The notes under the pieces were generated by a model, which saw only the letters and a list, made by a program, of their open reading frames with translations, was not told the DNA's origin and made no database searches. A DNA stretch of 43,031 nucleotides. It comes from Planctomycetota bacterium (GTDB taxonomy: Bacteria; Planctomycetota; Planctomycetia; Gemmatales; Gemmataceae). Shown piece after piece: positions 30,762-39,562 of this stretch. Each line of letters opens with the position of its first letter. Position 1 is the first letter of the stretch. The translations under genes were made by a program, and so were the position numbers. The DNA lies in NCBI GenBank assembly GCA_016191165.1, contig JACPPF010000119.1, positions 1 through 43,031 of the forward strand. The letters run 5' to 3'.

Positions 30762-31814
30762 TCAGCGATTGCGAATGCGCTCGAGCGCCCAGGCGGCGGC
30801 ATCGCGCACCGCGGGATCGACGTCCGCAAGCGCTTGCCGAAGCGCCGGCACGGCGTGCTCGTTCCCGTGGTTGCCCAGAGCAATGGCTGCGTTGCGGGCC
30901 AATCCGACACGTCCGGCTCGCCAAAGGGGCGTGTCCCGGAAGCGACTGCGAAAATCCTCGTCACTCAAATTCAGAATCTCAACGAGATCGATCTGAGTTC
31001 CGGCCTGCGTCGGCATGAAGGAGGGCTCACGTCCCACCGGCGCCTTACGATTCCACGGGCAGACCTCCTGGCAAATGTCGCAACCGAATACCCAGTCGTC
31101 CATCGGCGCGCGAAGTTCCTCCAAAATGACGCCGCGCAGCTCGATGGTCAGATAGCTGATGCAACGCCGGGCGTCGAGTTGAAAAGGCCCGACAAAAGCA
31201 TCGGTCGGGCAGGCGTCCAGGCAGCGTGTGCAGGTGCCGCAGTGGGAACTGGAAAACGGATCATCCGCTTGCAACTCCAGATCGAGCAACAGCGCGCCGA
31301 GAAAGAAATAGCTGCCCAGCCAGCGGTTGAGCAACATGGTGTTCTTCCCGAACCAGCCAAGTCCGGACCGTCGCGCGAAGTCGCGTTCAAGGAGCGGCGC
31401 CGTATCGATGACCGCCCGCCCGCGCACGCCGGGGTTTTCACCCTGAATCCACGCCAGCAACCCTTTCAGCTTCGCACGCAGCACGTCGTGGTAATCCGCC
31501 CCGCCCGCGTAACAAGAGACCCGGCCTTTATTAGTTGTCTGTTGGCCACTGCCTGCCGCCGGCCTTTCCTTGTAATTGATCGCGACCATCACGACGCTTC
31601 GCACGTCAGGCAACACGGACTGCGGATTGCGCCGGGCCTCGGCATGGCGAGCCATGTATTCCATTTCACCCGCGAAGCCTTGGGCCAGCCAATCTTCAAG
31701 ATGGGCAAAGCCATCGGCATCGCTCGCCGGCGCGATTCCAACCAGCTCGAAGCCGAGGGCGTGTGCTTGTTCTTTGATGCCCAATTCAATTGAAGGCATG
31801 GGAAGAGACTTCAT
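30762..31814 (-). CDS. queG: Epoxyqueuosine reductase QueG
   Basis: QueG performs the last step of queuosine synthesis in tRNA, reducing epoxyqueuosine with cobalamin and two [4Fe-4S] clusters. The 350-residue protein shows the cobalamin-domain motif IDTAPLLERDFARRSGLGW and GKNTML, then the ferredoxin clusters CGTCTRCLDACPTDAF and FGCDICQEVCPWN. The C-terminus is HEAT-like (VPALRQALADVDPAVRDAAA), as in the family. Its ATG at 31814 overlaps the stop of the upstream Uma2 gene (ATGA), so the two are coupled. A second ATG at 31799 is also possible. Confidence 0.95.
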   Translation of the reverse strand: MKSLPMPSIELGIKEQAHALGFELVGIAPASDADGFAHLEDWLAQGFAGEMEYMARHAEARRNPQSVLPDVRSVVMVAINYKERPAAGSGQQTTNKGRVSCYAGGADYHDVLRAKLKGLLAWIQGENPGVRGRAVIDTAPLLERDFARRSGLGWFGKNTMLLNRWLGSYFFLGALLLDLELQADDPFSSSHCGTCTRCLDACPTDAFVGPFQLDARRCISYLTIELRGVILEELRAPMDDWVFGCDICQEVCPWNRKAPVGREPSFMPTQAGTQIDLVEILNLSDEDFRSRFRDTPLWRAGRVGLARNAAIALGNHGNEHAVPALRQALADVDPAVRDAAAWALERIRNR

Positions 31815-33245: not shown

Positions 33246-35372
33246 ATGTCACCTGCGCAAATGCCTTGCCCGCACTGTGGCGCGATGTTTGACGTTGCCG
33301 CGGGCACGCCATCGGCGTGTCCGATCTGCCGGCAACCTCTCAACGCCCCATCGCCGTCAGAATCAGCCCCACGCACGGGAATCAACGCGGCTTCCGATGC
33401 GACCCTGTCCGATACGCTCGCTGATCAACCGTTGAAATTGCCCGTGACGGCCAAGGCGCGGAAAGCCAAGGACGGAATCCTTGTGTCGAAGCCGTACGCG
33501 CCTCCCGGCGCCATCGCCTCGGGAGCGGCGCCCCCTTCAGGGCCGACCGTTCTTCCCCAGCTCGCGGCGCCCACGGCTCCGCCACTTCGCAAGCCACAGC
33601 AAAGCAATGCCGGCGGCAAAGCGATCCTGCTTGGGAGCGTGTTCGGCTTGCTCCTGCTTTTTCTGGGCGGGCTCGCCATTGCAGGCTGGAAGTTAACAGA
33701 GGCCAGGGAAGCAAATCCTGATGAACTCAACGATTCCAAAACCCCGAAGGTTCTTGTCAAGGCGGATGACCAGAAGAAATCGATCCCAAAGGAAAACTAT
33801 CCCGGCGGCGAAGACAATCTGGCCAAGGTTTCCGCCGATGAACTGGAAGACCTTCGCCTGAAGCTCGAAGAGGAATTGAAGCAAACCCTGAAACGAAAAG
33901 TGTCCGCGCGGCCGGTCAACGAGGCGGCATGGGATCCCATCCTGTCGTCGGACGGATCGCGACGGATCGCCGTCGGAGTGGATCAGCGAAAAATCAACCT
34001 GGCCATCGACAAGGGCGTTGCGTTTTTGAAACGCACCCAGCTGCCCAACGGCTCCTGGAGTTCGGGACATACCGTCGGGTATGCTTCCGTCGGCGGATTG
34101 ACCCTGCTGGAATGCGGCGTATCGGCGAAGGATCCCGCCGTGCAACAGGCGGCCAAGTTCGTTCGCGGCCACATCGCCAACCTGACCTCGACGTATGAAC
34201 TGTCGCTGGCCGTCCTTTTTCTGGATCGCCTGGGCGATCCATCCGATGAAGCGCACATCCAGGGCATGGGCCTGCGCCTGATGGCGGGGCAACAGGAATC
34301 GGGAGGCTGGCATTACCACTGCCCGCTTTTGCCGGCGAAGGAAATGTATGAGCTTTTCAACTTTGTGCGTGCTAACGAAGAGCCTAATTTTCTGCATCCG
34401 ATCCGTGATAAACTCAAGACGCACTCGGGCATCGTCGTCAATCCCGTGCGCGAGCCGATCAAATTCGCAAACCCCTTCAGCGAACTCAACGATTTGATTC
34501 TTGTCCAGGGCATTGCCGAAATAGGCGCCGCCAAAAAGCCGAAGGACGTGACCGGGGCCATCATGCCACTGGTTTTCCAGGAAAAACCGCCCCCCAACAA
34601 GAAGCCAGTCCCTGGGAAAACCTCACCAATGAAAGGCAAGCGCCCGGGCAAGCTGGCGCCAAACCTCAAGAACCTTCTGGTCGTGAAGAACCAGGGCAAG
34701 AAAAAAAGGAACCGAGGCAACGTCAACGGTGGCGGGGGAACCGATAACTCGAATACCCAGTTTGCGCTACTCGCCTTGTGGGCCGCGCGCAGGCACGGCG
34801 TGCCAACCGATCAGGTTCATCTCGCCGGTTATCACCGCTTCACGACCTCGCAGAACGCGGACGGTGGCTGGAACTACCATTACAAGGGTTCCGGTTCGAC
34901 CGCGAGCATGACCGGGGTCGGGCTCCTCGGGTTAGCGATGGGGCATGGGACTTCTCCGGAGGTTGTCCGTTTCAATCCGAAAAACCCCAAAGACTTTCTG
35001 GTAAAGCCCGCTCTACAGGATCCAGACATTCAGCGCGGGTTGCTGGCCCTGGCGCGCAGCATCGGTCAACCGTCCACCGATCCCAAGGCATCCAACTTCC
35101 CGATGCAGAATCTCTACTTCCTCTGGACCGTGGAACGGGTCGCCATGCTTTATGACCTGAAAACCATCGGCGGCAAGGACTGGTACGGCTGGGGCGCACA
35201 GATTCTCGTTCACAATCAAAACGCGCAAGGGGCCTGGCCCGTCTCCTATTATCCGGGCCAATCGACGCCGCTCAACACTTGCTTCGCCCTCCTGTTTCTG
35301 CGGCGATCCAACCTGGTACAGGATTTGACCAACAACCTTCGACTTTATTCCGGTGTTCGCGACGGCGAATGA
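33246..35372 (+). CDS. Zinc-ribbon, membrane-anchored alpha/alpha-toroid protein (paralogue 1)
   Basis: The 708-residue protein has four parts: a zinc ribbon (Cys8/11 and Cys25/28), a Pro/Ala/Ser-rich linker, one transmembrane helix at about 126-147 (LLGSVFGLLLLFLGGLAIAG), and, from about residue 245, an alpha/alpha-toroid of the terpene-cyclase/prenyltransferase-repeat type (INLAIDKGVAFLKRTQLPNG, GWHYHC, NTQFALLALWAARRHGV, SQNADGGWNYHYKG). A Lys/Pro-rich disordered insert of about 65 residues (435-500) splits the toroid. No DxDD or metal-binding catalytic motif is evident, so it may be a binding protein rather than a cyclase. The paralogue at 35395 follows after 22 nt. Confidence 0.8.
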   Translation: MSPAQMPCPHCGAMFDVAAGTPSACPICRQPLNAPSPSESAPRTGINAASDATLSDTLADQPLKLPVTAKARKAKDGILVSKPYAPPGAIASGAAPPSGPTVLPQLAAPTAPPLRKPQQSNAGGKAILLGSVFGLLLLFLGGLAIAGWKLTEAREANPDELNDSKTPKVLVKADDQKKSIPKENYPGGEDNLAKVSADELEDLRLKLEEELKQTLKRKVSARPVNEAAWDPILSSDGSRRIAVGVDQRKINLAIDKGVAFLKRTQLPNGSWSSGHTVGYASVGGLTLLECGVSAKDPAVQQAAKFVRGHIANLTSTYELSLAVLFLDRLGDPSDEAHIQGMGLRLMAGQQESGGWHYHCPLLPAKEMYELFNFVRANEEPNFLHPIRDKLKTHSGIVVNPVREPIKFANPFSELNDLILVQGIAEIGAAKKPKDVTGAIMPLVFQEKPPPNKKPVPGKTSPMKGKRPGKLAPNLKNLLVVKNQGKKKRNRGNVNGGGGTDNSNTQFALLALWAARRHGVPTDQVHLAGYHRFTTSQNADGGWNYHYKGSGSTASMTGVGLLGLAMGHGTSPEVVRFNPKNPKDFLVKPALQDPDIQRGLLALARSIGQPSTDPKASNFPMQNLYFLWTVERVAMLYDLKTIGGKDWYGWGAQILVHNQNAQGAWPVSYYPGQSTPLNTCFALLFLRRSNLVQDLTNNLRLYSGVRDGE

Positions 35373-35394
35373 CCCGCCTGGCAAGGAAAACGCT

Positions 35395-37587
35395 ATGAAA
35401 ACCACGCAACTGACCTGTCCGAATTGTCGTTCGTCCCTCAAATTCGGCGCGGAGATCGCCGCGGGTATGTCGGTGGAGTGCCTGATTTGCATGAAGCCAT
35501 TTGTCGCCACCAACCCGGTCGTGATGGATGCTCCGGCGCCGGCCCCCGCGCCGCCCAGGAAACCAGCGCCGGCAAAAACGTCCGTGAGCGCGAGCAAACC
35601 TGGCGCCGAACTTGCGCAACCCTCCGCGCCGCGGCTGCGCAAGCCCGCCAGCTCCAGCGGCGGATTGGTCACCGCCGCGGTCGCGGTCGCCGTCCTGCTC
35701 CTGGTCGCCGGCGCAGGTTTCGGCATCTGGAAATTCATTGACTCCAATTCCGCGAAATCTGGGCCCGACAAAAATACCGATGGCGGCCCCATCGCGCTGA
35801 ACCCGAAAAAAGGCGATAGCGACAAGAGTGTGATCCCGCCCAAGAAAAAGCCCGAGAAAGAACCTGACCCGGCGCCGAAAAAAACCAATACAGATCAAGT
35901 CAACAACAACCCGCCCGAAAAAAAGGCGCCGCCCAAAAAATCGACCGAGGAACCCGAACCCGTCAAGAAGGACGACGAAAAGCCAAAGCTGGTTCGCAAG
36001 GAGACTGGCAAGCCCAAGGTCAAGGATCCAATCCTCACCCTGGAGCCGAAAAAGGAAATCGTCAAGAAAAAAGAACCAGGCCAAAAGCCCGTGCCGCTGG
36101 TGGGCGTCACCCAGTTCAAGATCGATTCCGCAATTACCAAGGGAGTTGCGTATCTGAAGAAATCGCAGCTTCCCAGCGGAACCTGGCCGAGTGAAAAACA
36201 CGCGGTTGGCCACGCGTCACTGGGCGGCCTGGCGCTGCTCGAATGCAAGGTCGCGACGGATGATCCGTCGGTGGTTCGGGCAGCCAGGTTTGTTCGCGCC
36301 AATGTTGGCAGTTTGAATAGCACCTACGATATATCGACTGCGGTTTTATTTCTCGATCGGCTAGGCGATGCCGCGGATCGCCCGATTATCCAGGGACTGG
36401 CGCTTCGTCTGATCGCCAGTCAGGACGCGGGCGGCGGTTGGGGCTACATCTGCAATGTCCTGTCGCCACGGGCCATGTATGACCTCTTCGATTTCCTTCA
36501 GAAAAACAAGAAGTCCAACGTCCTGAACCCGCTTGGAACGCCGGTCAAGCAAGCCGTGATGGTCGCCAATCCAGCAACCAAGCTCAATGATCCGAGCGAT
36601 CCGTTTTACCAGTTTGCGGAGTTGGTCAAGAACAAGGGAGCGGGCGGCGCAGGCAGGCCGTTCCCAGCACCGGGGGGCGGGCTGCCGCTGCCTCTGCCCG
36701 GCGGCAAGCAGCCCTTGCCCTTGCCCATCCCAGGTGGCAAGCAGCCCCTGCCCTTGCCGTTGCCCGGCGGCAATCCTCCGCTTCAGCCGCTGCCGGGCGG
36801 ACAACCGCCGGTACAGGGCGGACCTTTGCCAGGCGGCGTCCAGGACCCGCTTGGCCCGGGAGGTAGCAACGCTCACATTCCGGCCGTCAAGTTTAACGGC
36901 AAGACCAAAAACCAGGTGCCTCGTCCCGAAGCCAGCGTGGGCAATGCCGACAATTCCAACACCCAGTTCGCCCTTCTCGCGCTGTGGGCGGCGCGCCGGC
37001 ATGACGTGCCAGCCGATTACGCTCTTGCATTCGCTTACCAGCGCTTCATGGCGTCTCAGGTTCAGGACGGCGGTTGGGGCTACGGCTTCGTGGCCGGCGT
37101 CCCGCAGGGTTCCCACACCATGACCTGCGTGGGCCTGTTGGGGCTGGCGCTCGGGCATGGCGTCGCGCCCGAAGTGGTCAAGTTTGACGCGAAAAACCCC
37201 AAGAATTCGGTAGTCAAACCCCCATTGCAAGATGCCGCCATCCAGCGCGCCCTGACTTGCGTCACGCGCTACATTGGCCAGCCTCATGCGAATCCCAATG
37301 GCGCGCAGATCCCGATGGAGAACCTTTACTTCCTCTGGTCGGTGGAACGCGTTGCGGTCCTCTATGATCTGAAGACGATGGGGGGCAAGGACTGGTACAG
37401 CTGGGGCGCTCAAATCCTGGTCCGCAACCAGGACGCCGACGCGGGCGACTGGCGTGATTCCAACTACACCGGCGCCAATCCCGCAGTCAACACCTGCTTC
37501 GCTCTGCTGTTCCTGCGCCGCTCCAACCTCGTGCAGGACCTGACAAACGATTTGCGCTTCTACTCCGGCATCCGTCAGGTTGATTGA
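35395..37587 (+). CDS. Zinc-ribbon, membrane-anchored alpha/alpha-toroid protein (paralogue 2)
   Basis: The 730-residue protein repeats the plan of its neighbour: zinc ribbon (Cys8/11, Cys29/32), linker, transmembrane helix at about 89-112 (GLVTAAVAVAVLLLVAGAGF), a very Lys/Pro/Glu-rich stalk (about 120-235), and the toroid from about 240 (ITKGVAYLKKSQLPSGTW). It has a Pro/Gly/Gln-rich insert (about 425-490; PLPLPGGKQPLPLPIPGGK) at the same site as the partner's insert. The final 200 residues are very similar in both, for example NTQFALLALWAARRH and RRSNLVQDLTN. ATG 35395 is chosen because homology and an AAGGA site begin there. They arose by tandem duplication and are probably one operon, ended by the terminator at 37621. 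Confidence 0.8.
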   Translation: MKTTQLTCPNCRSSLKFGAEIAAGMSVECLICMKPFVATNPVVMDAPAPAPAPPRKPAPAKTSVSASKPGAELAQPSAPRLRKPASSSGGLVTAAVAVAVLLLVAGAGFGIWKFIDSNSAKSGPDKNTDGGPIALNPKKGDSDKSVIPPKKKPEKEPDPAPKKTNTDQVNNNPPEKKAPPKKSTEEPEPVKKDDEKPKLVRKETGKPKVKDPILTLEPKKEIVKKKEPGQKPVPLVGVTQFKIDSAITKGVAYLKKSQLPSGTWPSEKHAVGHASLGGLALLECKVATDDPSVVRAARFVRANVGSLNSTYDISTAVLFLDRLGDAADRPIIQGLALRLIASQDAGGGWGYICNVLSPRAMYDLFDFLQKNKKSNVLNPLGTPVKQAVMVANPATKLNDPSDPFYQFAELVKNKGAGGAGRPFPAPGGGLPLPLPGGKQPLPLPIPGGKQPLPLPLPGGNPPLQPLPGGQPPVQGGPLPGGVQDPLGPGGSNAHIPAVKFNGKTKNQVPRPEASVGNADNSNTQFALLALWAARRHDVPADYALAFAYQRFMASQVQDGGWGYGFVAGVPQGSHTMTCVGLLGLALGHGVAPEVVKFDAKNPKNSVVKPPLQDAAIQRALTCVTRYIGQPHANPNGAQIPMENLYFLWSVERVAVLYDLKTMGGKDWYSWGAQILVRNQDADAGDWRDSNYTGANPAVNTCFALLFLRRSNLVQDLTNDLRFYSGIRQVD

Positions 37588-37620: not shown

Positions 37621-37652
37621 AACAACCCCGCGCCGACCAGCGCGGGGTTGTT
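37621..37652 (+). terminator. Hairpin terminator after toroid pair
   Basis: AACAACCCCGCG (37621-37632) and CGCGGGGTTGTT (37641-37652) form a perfect 12-bp stem with an eight-base loop, followed by a short T-stretch. It lies 33 nt after the second toroid gene. Confidence 0.7.
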
Positions 37653-37669: not shown

Positions 37670-38515
37670 ATGAAACCGTGCCTCAGCCAGGCCACGACCA
37701 TGCCCTGTAGCTTCGCGGACGACGTGAACTCCTGCGCCGATGCCGGCTGCCCCGCCCTGGAGGTTTGGTTGACCAAGCTGGAAGACCACCTGCAAACCAC
37801 CTCGATCGACGCCACACGCGAACTGCTAAGCCGGCGCAACATCATGTTACCAGCGGCGGCCTACCAGGGTGGCTTGTTGCTTTCGCAGGGAGAGTCCAGG
37901 CGAGCCCACTACGATCATTTTCTTAAACGGCTGGACTTGTGCCAGCAGTTCAACATACAGACTCTCTTGCTCGCGCCGGATTTCACGCAAAAAACCGAAT
38001 CCACTCACCTCGATCAAGCGTGCGCCGCCTTGGCCGGGGCGGCGCAGTGGGCTGCCGGGTTCGGCGTCACGCTCGCCCTGGAATTTCGCGCTCGAGACAC
38101 CTTTTGTGCCAGCCTCGACACCGCGCTGGCGCTCATCCATCAATGTGGCGAACCAAACGTTGGCGCCAACCTTGACGTTTTTCACTGGTACACCGGCCCG
38201 AGCAAGTTTGAGGATTTCGCGCTCCTGACACGTGACCGCCTGGCCCACGTGCAAATTTGCGATCTGGCCGGCGTGCCCCGCGAACTCGCCACCGATGCCG
38301 ACCGCGTCCTGCCGGGCGACGGCGACTTCCAACTCCTGCCGATCCTTGATGTGCTACGCCGCCTCGGCTATGACGGCTGGGTCTCGCTGGAGGCCATGAA
38401 CCCCACCCTTTGGCGCGCCAATCCCAAACAGGTCGCGGAAATCGGCTACACATCCCTCCGCAAGATTCTGGGCCTAGCCGTCACCGAATCGGCCTGGAGC
38501 GCCCGCCCGATTTGA
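37670..38515 (+). CDS. Sugar phosphate isomerase/epimerase-like TIM-barrel protein
   Basis: The 281-residue protein is a xylose-isomerase-like barrel. Candidate metal ligands are Glu in LALEFRA, Asp and His in GANLDVFHWY, His in HVQICDLAG, and Glu in VSLEAMNP. Substrates in this family range from inositol derivatives to hydroxypyruvate, and cannot be told from sequence. The chosen ATG at 37670 follows the terminator and has AAGG about eight bases upstream; the open frame extends 30 codons back through the terminator and is rejected. It is not closely similar to the 7730-8551 barrel. Confidence 0.82.
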   Translation: MKPCLSQATTMPCSFADDVNSCADAGCPALEVWLTKLEDHLQTTSIDATRELLSRRNIMLPAAAYQGGLLLSQGESRRAHYDHFLKRLDLCQQFNIQTLLLAPDFTQKTESTHLDQACAALAGAAQWAAGFGVTLALEFRARDTFCASLDTALALIHQCGEPNVGANLDVFHWYTGPSKFEDFALLTRDRLAHVQICDLAGVPRELATDADRVLPGDGDFQLLPILDVLRRLGYDGWVSLEAMNPTLWRANPKQVAEIGYTSLRKILGLAVTESAWSARPI

Positions 38516-38722
38516 CCATCCCCGAGCCAATTACCCCCCAGGCGGCCGATTTGCTTGAAGCTGTGCCGAACATTCGGCTTGCAGCGCATCGTTTTCCGAA
38601 GTTTGCCCCATTTTGGCTTCAGTTCCGGCTGTTTTGAACCGCGAAAGATTTACAATTGAGCGAACGGTGTTTCACTTCGGGATGTGAAGCCTGCGTCATC
38701 GGAATTCGTCGAGGAGACAGAA

Positions 38723-39562
38723 ATGAGGCGATTGAGTTGCTTGATTTTCGGTTTGGCCGTGGCTGGTTTGTTGCACGGGCCCGCGTTTGGGCAAGCGAAA
38801 AAAGAGAAAACGAAAGATTCACCCAAGAAGGTCGAATTCAGGGGACCGTCCTACAAGCACCTGGATGGTCAACTGGTGGTCTTCGTCGCCAACGGCGCCG
38901 GCGGCTCGACGGCGGTCAGCGACAACCTGTTCGACCTCAACAGCGAGCACAACCTGCGGTTGCGAATTCAAATGGTCCCCTGGGCCAAACAAGACTCGCT
39001 GTTTCGCGATCTGGTTGACCAGGAGTCCCAGATCAACGCCGCCGCTCGCATTGCCTGCACGGTGGAGGCCATCCGCAAGGACGCCCCCCACGCCCATTTC
39101 TTTTTCGTCGGGCAAAGCGCGGGCGCCCGCGTCGTCCTCGCTGCCGCGGAGATGCTGCCTGCCAAGAGCGTCGACCGAGTCATCGTCCTGTCGCCCGCTG
39201 TTTCCTGCTTCTATGATTTGACCCGGGCGCTCAAGACGTCGAAGTACGGCATCGATAACTTCTATAGCACCGAGGACGGCATCCTGGAAATTGCCGAGGA
39301 GAAGGTCGGCACCGCCGAAGGCCTCAAGACTCCGATGGCCGGCCGCGTCGGTTTCCGGCTCGCTTCGTCTGACAAGAAGGAAATCGAGGCCTATCGCGCC
39401 GTCCGGCAAATCCGCTGGACCCAGGACTATTGCGGCTCGGGCGGACACTTCGCCTGGACCTTGCGGCACAATCTCAAGAAGACCGTCGTGCCGATGTTCT
39501 TCTGTGCCCCCGCCGGCGATTGCCCCACCATCGTTTTGAACAAGAAACCAGCAAAAAAATAG
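38723..39562 (+). CDS. Secreted alpha/beta-hydrolase-like protein
   Basis: The 279-residue protein starts with a signal peptide (MRRLSCLIFGLAVAGLLHGPAFGQ). The strand-turn-helix FFFVGQSAGARVVLAAAEM has a GxSxG nucleophile elbow with Ser132; VIVLSPAV and a late GSGGHFAWTL (with the candidate catalytic His) fit the fold. GAGGAG is six bases before the ATG at 38723. The substrate is unknown; lipid or ester hydrolysis in the periplasm is plausible. DUF1501 follows after about 140 nt on the same strand. Confidence 0.7.
   Translation: MRRLSCLIFGLAVAGLLHGPAFGQAKKEKTKDSPKKVEFRGPSYKHLDGQLVVFVANGAGGSTAVSDNLFDLNSEHNLRLRIQMVPWAKQDSLFRDLVDQESQINAAARIACTVEAIRKDAPHAHFFFVGQSAGARVVLAAAEMLPAKSVDRVIVLSPAVSCFYDLTRALKTSKYGIDNFYSTEDGILEIAEEKVGTAEGLKTPMAGRVGFRLASSDKKEIEAYRAVRQIRWTQDYCGSGGHFAWTLRHNLKKTVVPMFFCAPAGDCPTIVLNKKPAKK

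Follow-up and report, generated by a model that had tools for sequence, protein, structure and literature searches.

The window, a 43,031-nucleotide stretch of a Planctomycetota genome of the family Gemmataceae (contig JACPPF010000119.1), carries two adjacent genes on the same strand, separated by 22 bases, that encode paralogous, membrane-anchored, ring-shaped proteins, here designated P1 and P2. The start of P2 is most likely the ATG at 35395, giving a product of 730 aa; an alternative GTG at 35353 would overlap P1. The following features were assigned, with the supporting evidence in brackets.

33246..35372, + strand: P1, a protein with ribbon, TM helix, stalk and toroid, 708 aa (ORF, profile matches, alignment, AlphaFold model)
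33267..33329, + strand: Cys4 ribbon of P1, CPHC...CPIC (Cys invariant in the alignment)
33621..33689, + strand: predicted TM helix of P1, about residues 126-148 (hydropathy; N-terminal flank positively charged)
33975..34397, + strand: toroid part A of P1, with a QW-type motif and STYELS (alignment, model)
34398..34733, + strand: disordered insert of P1 (insert alignment, model, composition)
34734..35363, + strand: toroid part B of P1, DNSNTQ ... YFLWTVER ... DWY ... NTCFALLFL (alignment, motifs)
35395..37587, + strand: P2, paralogue of P1, 730 aa (ORF, profile matches, alignment, AlphaFold model)
35416..35490, + strand: Cys4 ribbon of P2 (alignment)
35665..35733, + strand: predicted TM helix of P2 (hydropathy)
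36529..36942, + strand: disordered insert of P2, limits approximate (insert alignment, model, composition)
36695..36773, + strand: 33-base tandem repeat, 2.4 copies, within the P2 insert
36949..37575, + strand: toroid part B of P2, limits approximate (alignment, model)
37621..37652, no strand assigned: GC-rich hairpin of 14 pairs in the gap after P2, a possible terminator
37670..38515, + strand: TIM-barrel (AP_endonuc_2) gene, probable ATG at 37670, syntenic in the genus
38684..39562, + strand: alpha/beta-hydrolase-like gene whose product has a hydrophobic N-terminus and looks secreted, syntenic in the genus

With this hairpin ahead of it, the TIM-barrel gene may have a transcript of its own. 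Elsewhere in the window, positions 30762-31814 encode an epoxyqueuosine reductase of the QueG type with C-terminal HEAT repeats.

Architecture and conserved residues of P1 and P2

Aligned over their full length, P1 and P2 are 40% identical (E 3e-142), with identities of 38% in the ribbon, 27% in the linker, TM helix and stalk, 55% in toroid A, 22% in the insert and 64% in toroid B. The cysteines of the Cys4 ribbon do not vary among ten aligned sequences. Hydropathy analysis gave one strongly hydrophobic helix in each protein, and the stalk is of low complexity in both, with a lysine content of 12% in P1 versus 24% in P2. AlphaFold predicted an alpha/alpha toroid for both proteins (pLDDT 81.5 and pTM 0.82 for P1; pLDDT 76.9 and pTM 0.79 for P2), and these toroid models are good except at the insert, which occupies the same toroid site in each and is modelled mostly at pLDDT <50 (model residues 147-222 in P1 and 145-260 in P2). 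The P1 insert consists of 16% Lys and 25% Pro/Gly/Gln, and that of P2 of 7% Lys and 47% Pro/Gly/Gln, with the 33-base tandem repeat making up part of its Pro/Gly stretch. These results bear out the preliminary description of the locus, which had reported two paralogues sharing ribbon, helix and toroid, with strongly different stalks and with different disordered inserts, Lys-rich and Pro/Gly/Gln-rich, at one toroid site.

In both proteins the ribbon probably faces the cytoplasm and the toroid the periplasm, a topology based only on hydropathy and on the charge flanking the helix, a bias that is weak for P2. Profile matches to 'PID_CTERM' and GltJ were dismissed, as they map to the TM helix and to the linker of low complexity. 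HEAT and alphaRep matches in a profile search of solved structures were likewise set aside, since they probably stem from distant homologues that carry HEAT repeats at the C-terminus and not from P1 or P2.

The best aligned chain for either model was squalene-hopene cyclase 2sqc (P1, Z 22.9, rmsd 2.9 over 267 residues; P2, Z 23.0, rmsd 3.3 over 271 residues). Domain 2 of this enzyme (2sqc / 1sqc) resembles P1 and P2 in its alpha/alpha toroid and QW-type repeats, with Z about 23 over about 270 residues, although the sequence match is weak. P1 and P2 differ from the cyclase in lacking DxDD, in having one toroid domain instead of two, in conserving another set of residues, and in carrying a ribbon, a TM anchor and a large disordered insert. 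The beta subunit of protein prenyltransferase was a fold match only (Z about 17.9). AprG, a 'transaldolase' by its PDB title, was also matched structurally (Z about 19.6), indicating that the fold class is not restricted to terpenes, although sharing a fold says nothing about function.

Among 32 homologues, the near-invariant residues (P1 numbering) are T316-Y317, D500-N-S-N-T-Q505, Y624-x-L-W-S-x-E-R631, D645-W-Y647 and T678-x-F-A-L-L-F-L685, and many conserved residues lie close to helix starts in the AlphaFold model. From the alignment and the model, we regard TY, DNSNTQ, YxLWSxER and DWY as a putative ligand pocket. Conservation in at least 90% of the other 30 homologues picks out 67 toroid positions, of which P1 retains all 67 and P2 64; the retention in P2 suggests that both copies probably serve one kind of function, and both look functional and alike.

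It is possible, though on balance unlikely, that the toroids are active enzymes performing new chemistry on the squalene-cyclase fold, with an envelope substrate held at the conserved pocket. The near-absolute conservation of polar and aromatic residues exceeds what a scaffold would be expected to need, and AprG exemplifies other reactions on this fold class, but no catalytic motif of a known enzyme was identified in the toroids, and the conserved residues may be structural (QW-type) or serve binding only.

Conservation of the pair and variation of the inserts

Six genomes of the genus were informative: the window genome, G001, G002, G003, G005 and G006. G004, in which no toroid match was found, is only 74% complete. 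Both P1 and P2 are present in the window genome and G006. In each of the other four genomes one toroid gene stands immediately ahead of the TIM-barrel and hydrolase genes, and P2 is missing from the locus; in G001 a second toroid gene is carried on another contig. In the core tree, P2 groups with the second G006 gene (bootstrap 100), and the two branch outside the P1-type genes of the whole genus (bootstrap 89-91), a placement that dates the duplication before the genus diversified. The simplest history would thus be an early tandem duplication, after which most of the genus lost P2. This fits the large-scale duplication and divergence described for Gemmataceae (PMC8567305). Gene conversion between P1 and P2 was considered and judged unlikely, because toroid B of P1 is 77% identical to its G006 orthologue versus the 64% it shares with P2.

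The difference between the two inserts looks, from sequence comparison, like ordinary drift of a disordered linker. In G002, G003 and G005, where the gene is single, the P1-type inserts contain 39–41% Pro/Gly/Gln and 8–10% Lys and are nearer to P2 than to P1, so that insert composition is no marker of a subunit; the P2-type insert of G006 contains 32% Pro/Gly/Gln. Composition is as variable among orthologues as between P1 and P2. The site is used throughout the family, with inserts of 2 to about 160 residues, and most members of the close set still show homology in the opening part, NPxRxP ... DPFxxL. The preliminary description had called the inserts swapped and taken the pattern as a sign of a two-subunit machine. 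A difference in composition is real, but there is no sign of exchange, and the variability among orthologues speaks against inserts that complement each other.

We consider it improbable that P1 and P2 are obligate partners in a heteromeric machine for periplasmic binding, in which the different inserts give the subunits different surfaces. Adjacency on one strand with a short gap, retention of the pair in two species of the genus and the strong differences in stalk and insert would all suit such a machine, as would the tandem toroids found in G009, G075 and elsewhere; set against these are the single gene in four of the six informative genomes, the P2-like composition of P1-type inserts in single-copy genomes, and the same pocket residues kept by both copies. 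Of the two-subunit periplasmic machine put forward in the preliminary description, the membrane anchoring and the probable periplasmic location are retained and the obligate pairing is not: the pair occurs in only two of the six informative genomes, and the single-gene loci are largely the finding that the same description had set against its own proposal. Tandem toroid genes were found at 8 of 43 loci overall, which makes the tandem arrangement a habit of the family; their recurrence at other loci still leaves room for functional pairing.

A different second tandem toroid pairing was seen in two genera (L097, 4315-8250, and L098, 6-3132), in which the second genes group together with a bootstrap of 97.

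The terpene-cyclase question and the wider family

Both proteins reach the gathering score of Pfam PF13243 (SQHop_cyclase_C), P1 with 26.1 bits, exactly at the cut-off of 26.1, and P2 with 28.6 bits. Their NCBIfam scores are 36.4 and 29.5 bits for TIGR01787, far under the cut-off of 322.7, and 21.3 and 17.8 bits for TIGR01507, versus a cut-off of 431.1. The DxDD proton-donor motif is absent from the sequences of P1 and P2. P1 and P2 have a squalene-cyclase fold, yet with the missing DxDD and the low NCBIfam scores they cannot be recognised as class II terpene cyclases. This agrees with the preliminary description, which saw no cyclase motif and argued against a terpene enzyme. The family is usually annotated with a terpene or prenyltransferase name, which the missing DxDD makes doubtful for P1 and P2. 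Helix counting and the co-linear structural match would place STYE at the DVDD position of the cyclase; when the toroid was aligned by profile to domain 2 of the squalene-hopene cyclase from the same genome, the register slipped by repeats. A reading of the toroids as class II terpene cyclases or as enzymes of the protein prenyltransferase type is, despite the Pfam scores and the fold match to squalene-hopene cyclase, highly improbable in view of the missing DxDD, a best NCBIfam cyclase score so far from its cut-off, the probably periplasmic position of the toroid and the separate squalene-hopene cyclase ORF with DxDD in the window genome.

This separate ORF (L001, 1393-3585) contains a repetitive stretch, TPLTPAPSPARGEGSLSPDAPSARGERSLSPDAPCAGGEGSLSP, shortly after DVDDTA; the stretch has the look of a repeat element that inserted into the gene and is now translated.

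When the toroid B piece (215 residues) was searched against 199 sampled genomes of the phylum, 93 gave a match at E <= 1e-10, many of them with several copies. The toroid is therefore not an undescribed kind of protein; P1 and P2 look like the products of an old duplication within a large family of planctomycetes, and not like a new machine of two parts. A literature search on the toroid family, planctomycete DUF4159 and DUF3352 found no functional study, and the main text of two planctomycete papers (PMC8567305, PMC10632474) does not mention the toroid family.

Among related proteins, those that join the toroid to DUF4159 in the same genomes (L020, 837 aa) have the same toroid, with the motifs SNSQFAMLALW, GLER, DWY and NTAFALLFL and a weak SQHop_cyclase_C match under the cut-off; unlike P1 and P2, they carry a C-terminal DUF4159 region (two matched stretches), have no ribbon-TM stalk and form a separate lineage. 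Ribbon-TM-toroid paralogues in Gemmataceae (L072, L074, the second gene of L097, and L099) share the architecture of P1 and P2 and have related motifs, but several have a short insert and they lie in other gene neighbourhoods. At L099 (7932-12277), the gene for a BatA-vWA protein follows the toroid gene after 39 bases, a neighbourhood that points to a possible link of that toroid to BatA-type envelope systems.

Gene neighbourhood and proposed role

Downstream of the toroid gene or genes, a TIM-barrel gene and then an alpha/beta-hydrolase-like gene are found in the window and in G001, G002, G003, G005 and G006. Directly upstream, a trio encoding an ECF sigma factor, a putative anti-sigma factor and a DUF3352-like protein was observed in G002, G003, G005 and G006, that is, in four of the six genus genomes, and also in G009, which belongs to another genus. 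The window genome and G001 carry the trio away from the toroids, on another contig (C26 and C113, respectively), and in most other genera examined it is not beside toroids. The trio of the window genome (L142, 1989-4947 of G000:C26) has one TGA counted within the anti-sigma match.

The anti-sigma protein of G006 gave a zf-HC2 match under the gathering score. For the secreted protein of the trio, the G009 product scored above the DUF3352 Pfam cut-off and that of G006 reached 18.3 bits versus 26.8, and the others had no Pfam match at 0.01; for all but the G009 protein the label DUF3352-like rests on homology to that protein. Homologues of the DUF3352-like protein are present in 71 of 95 Gemmataceae genomes, and in the other genera inspected no toroid gene lay within the short flanks fetched around them. 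With the trio directly upstream, the toroid seems in these relatives to belong to an envelope response under ECF-sigma control. Such a link is supported in part of the lineage; in the window genome, where the trio is not adjacent, regulation by the ECF sigma factor may not apply and is uncertain.

Computation established that P1 and P2 are paralogues, and also their architecture, fold match, lack of DxDD, conservation and synteny and the absence of P2 from most of the genus; topology, pocket, ligand and regulation are inferred. The explanation we favour, with moderate confidence, is that P1 and P2 are duplicated, anchored, periplasmic non-cyclase toroids that probably have one kind of function, binding and possibly processing an envelope ligand. 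A tandem duplication in the ancestor of the genus would have produced both genes. The Cys4 ribbon would probably lie in the cytoplasm, with one helix crossing the inner membrane and the disordered stalk holding the toroid in the periplasm, where it would bind an envelope ligand (a glycan, a peptide or a lipid-linked precursor) at the conserved pocket and possibly process it chemically. Periplasmic binding or processing of such a ligand is the likeliest function of P1 and P2. In relatives, the toroid may act in an ECF-sigma-controlled envelope response. The two copies would probably be partly redundant in function, P2 would later have disappeared from most of the genus, and insert and stalk would be fast-changing disordered linkers.

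A bolder picture, which we offer as a rather doubtful speculation, is that these proteins belong to a planctomycete-specific branch of the squalene-cyclase fold that moved to the periplasm on a membrane anchor, lost the cyclase acid, gained a new conserved active site and became the output of an ECF-sigma envelope response, with tandem copies specialised for different ligands. For a family found in 93 of 199 genomes, for which we found no functional paper, the conserved motifs and the ECF neighbourhood provide entry points to its role in the unusual envelope of planctomycetes.
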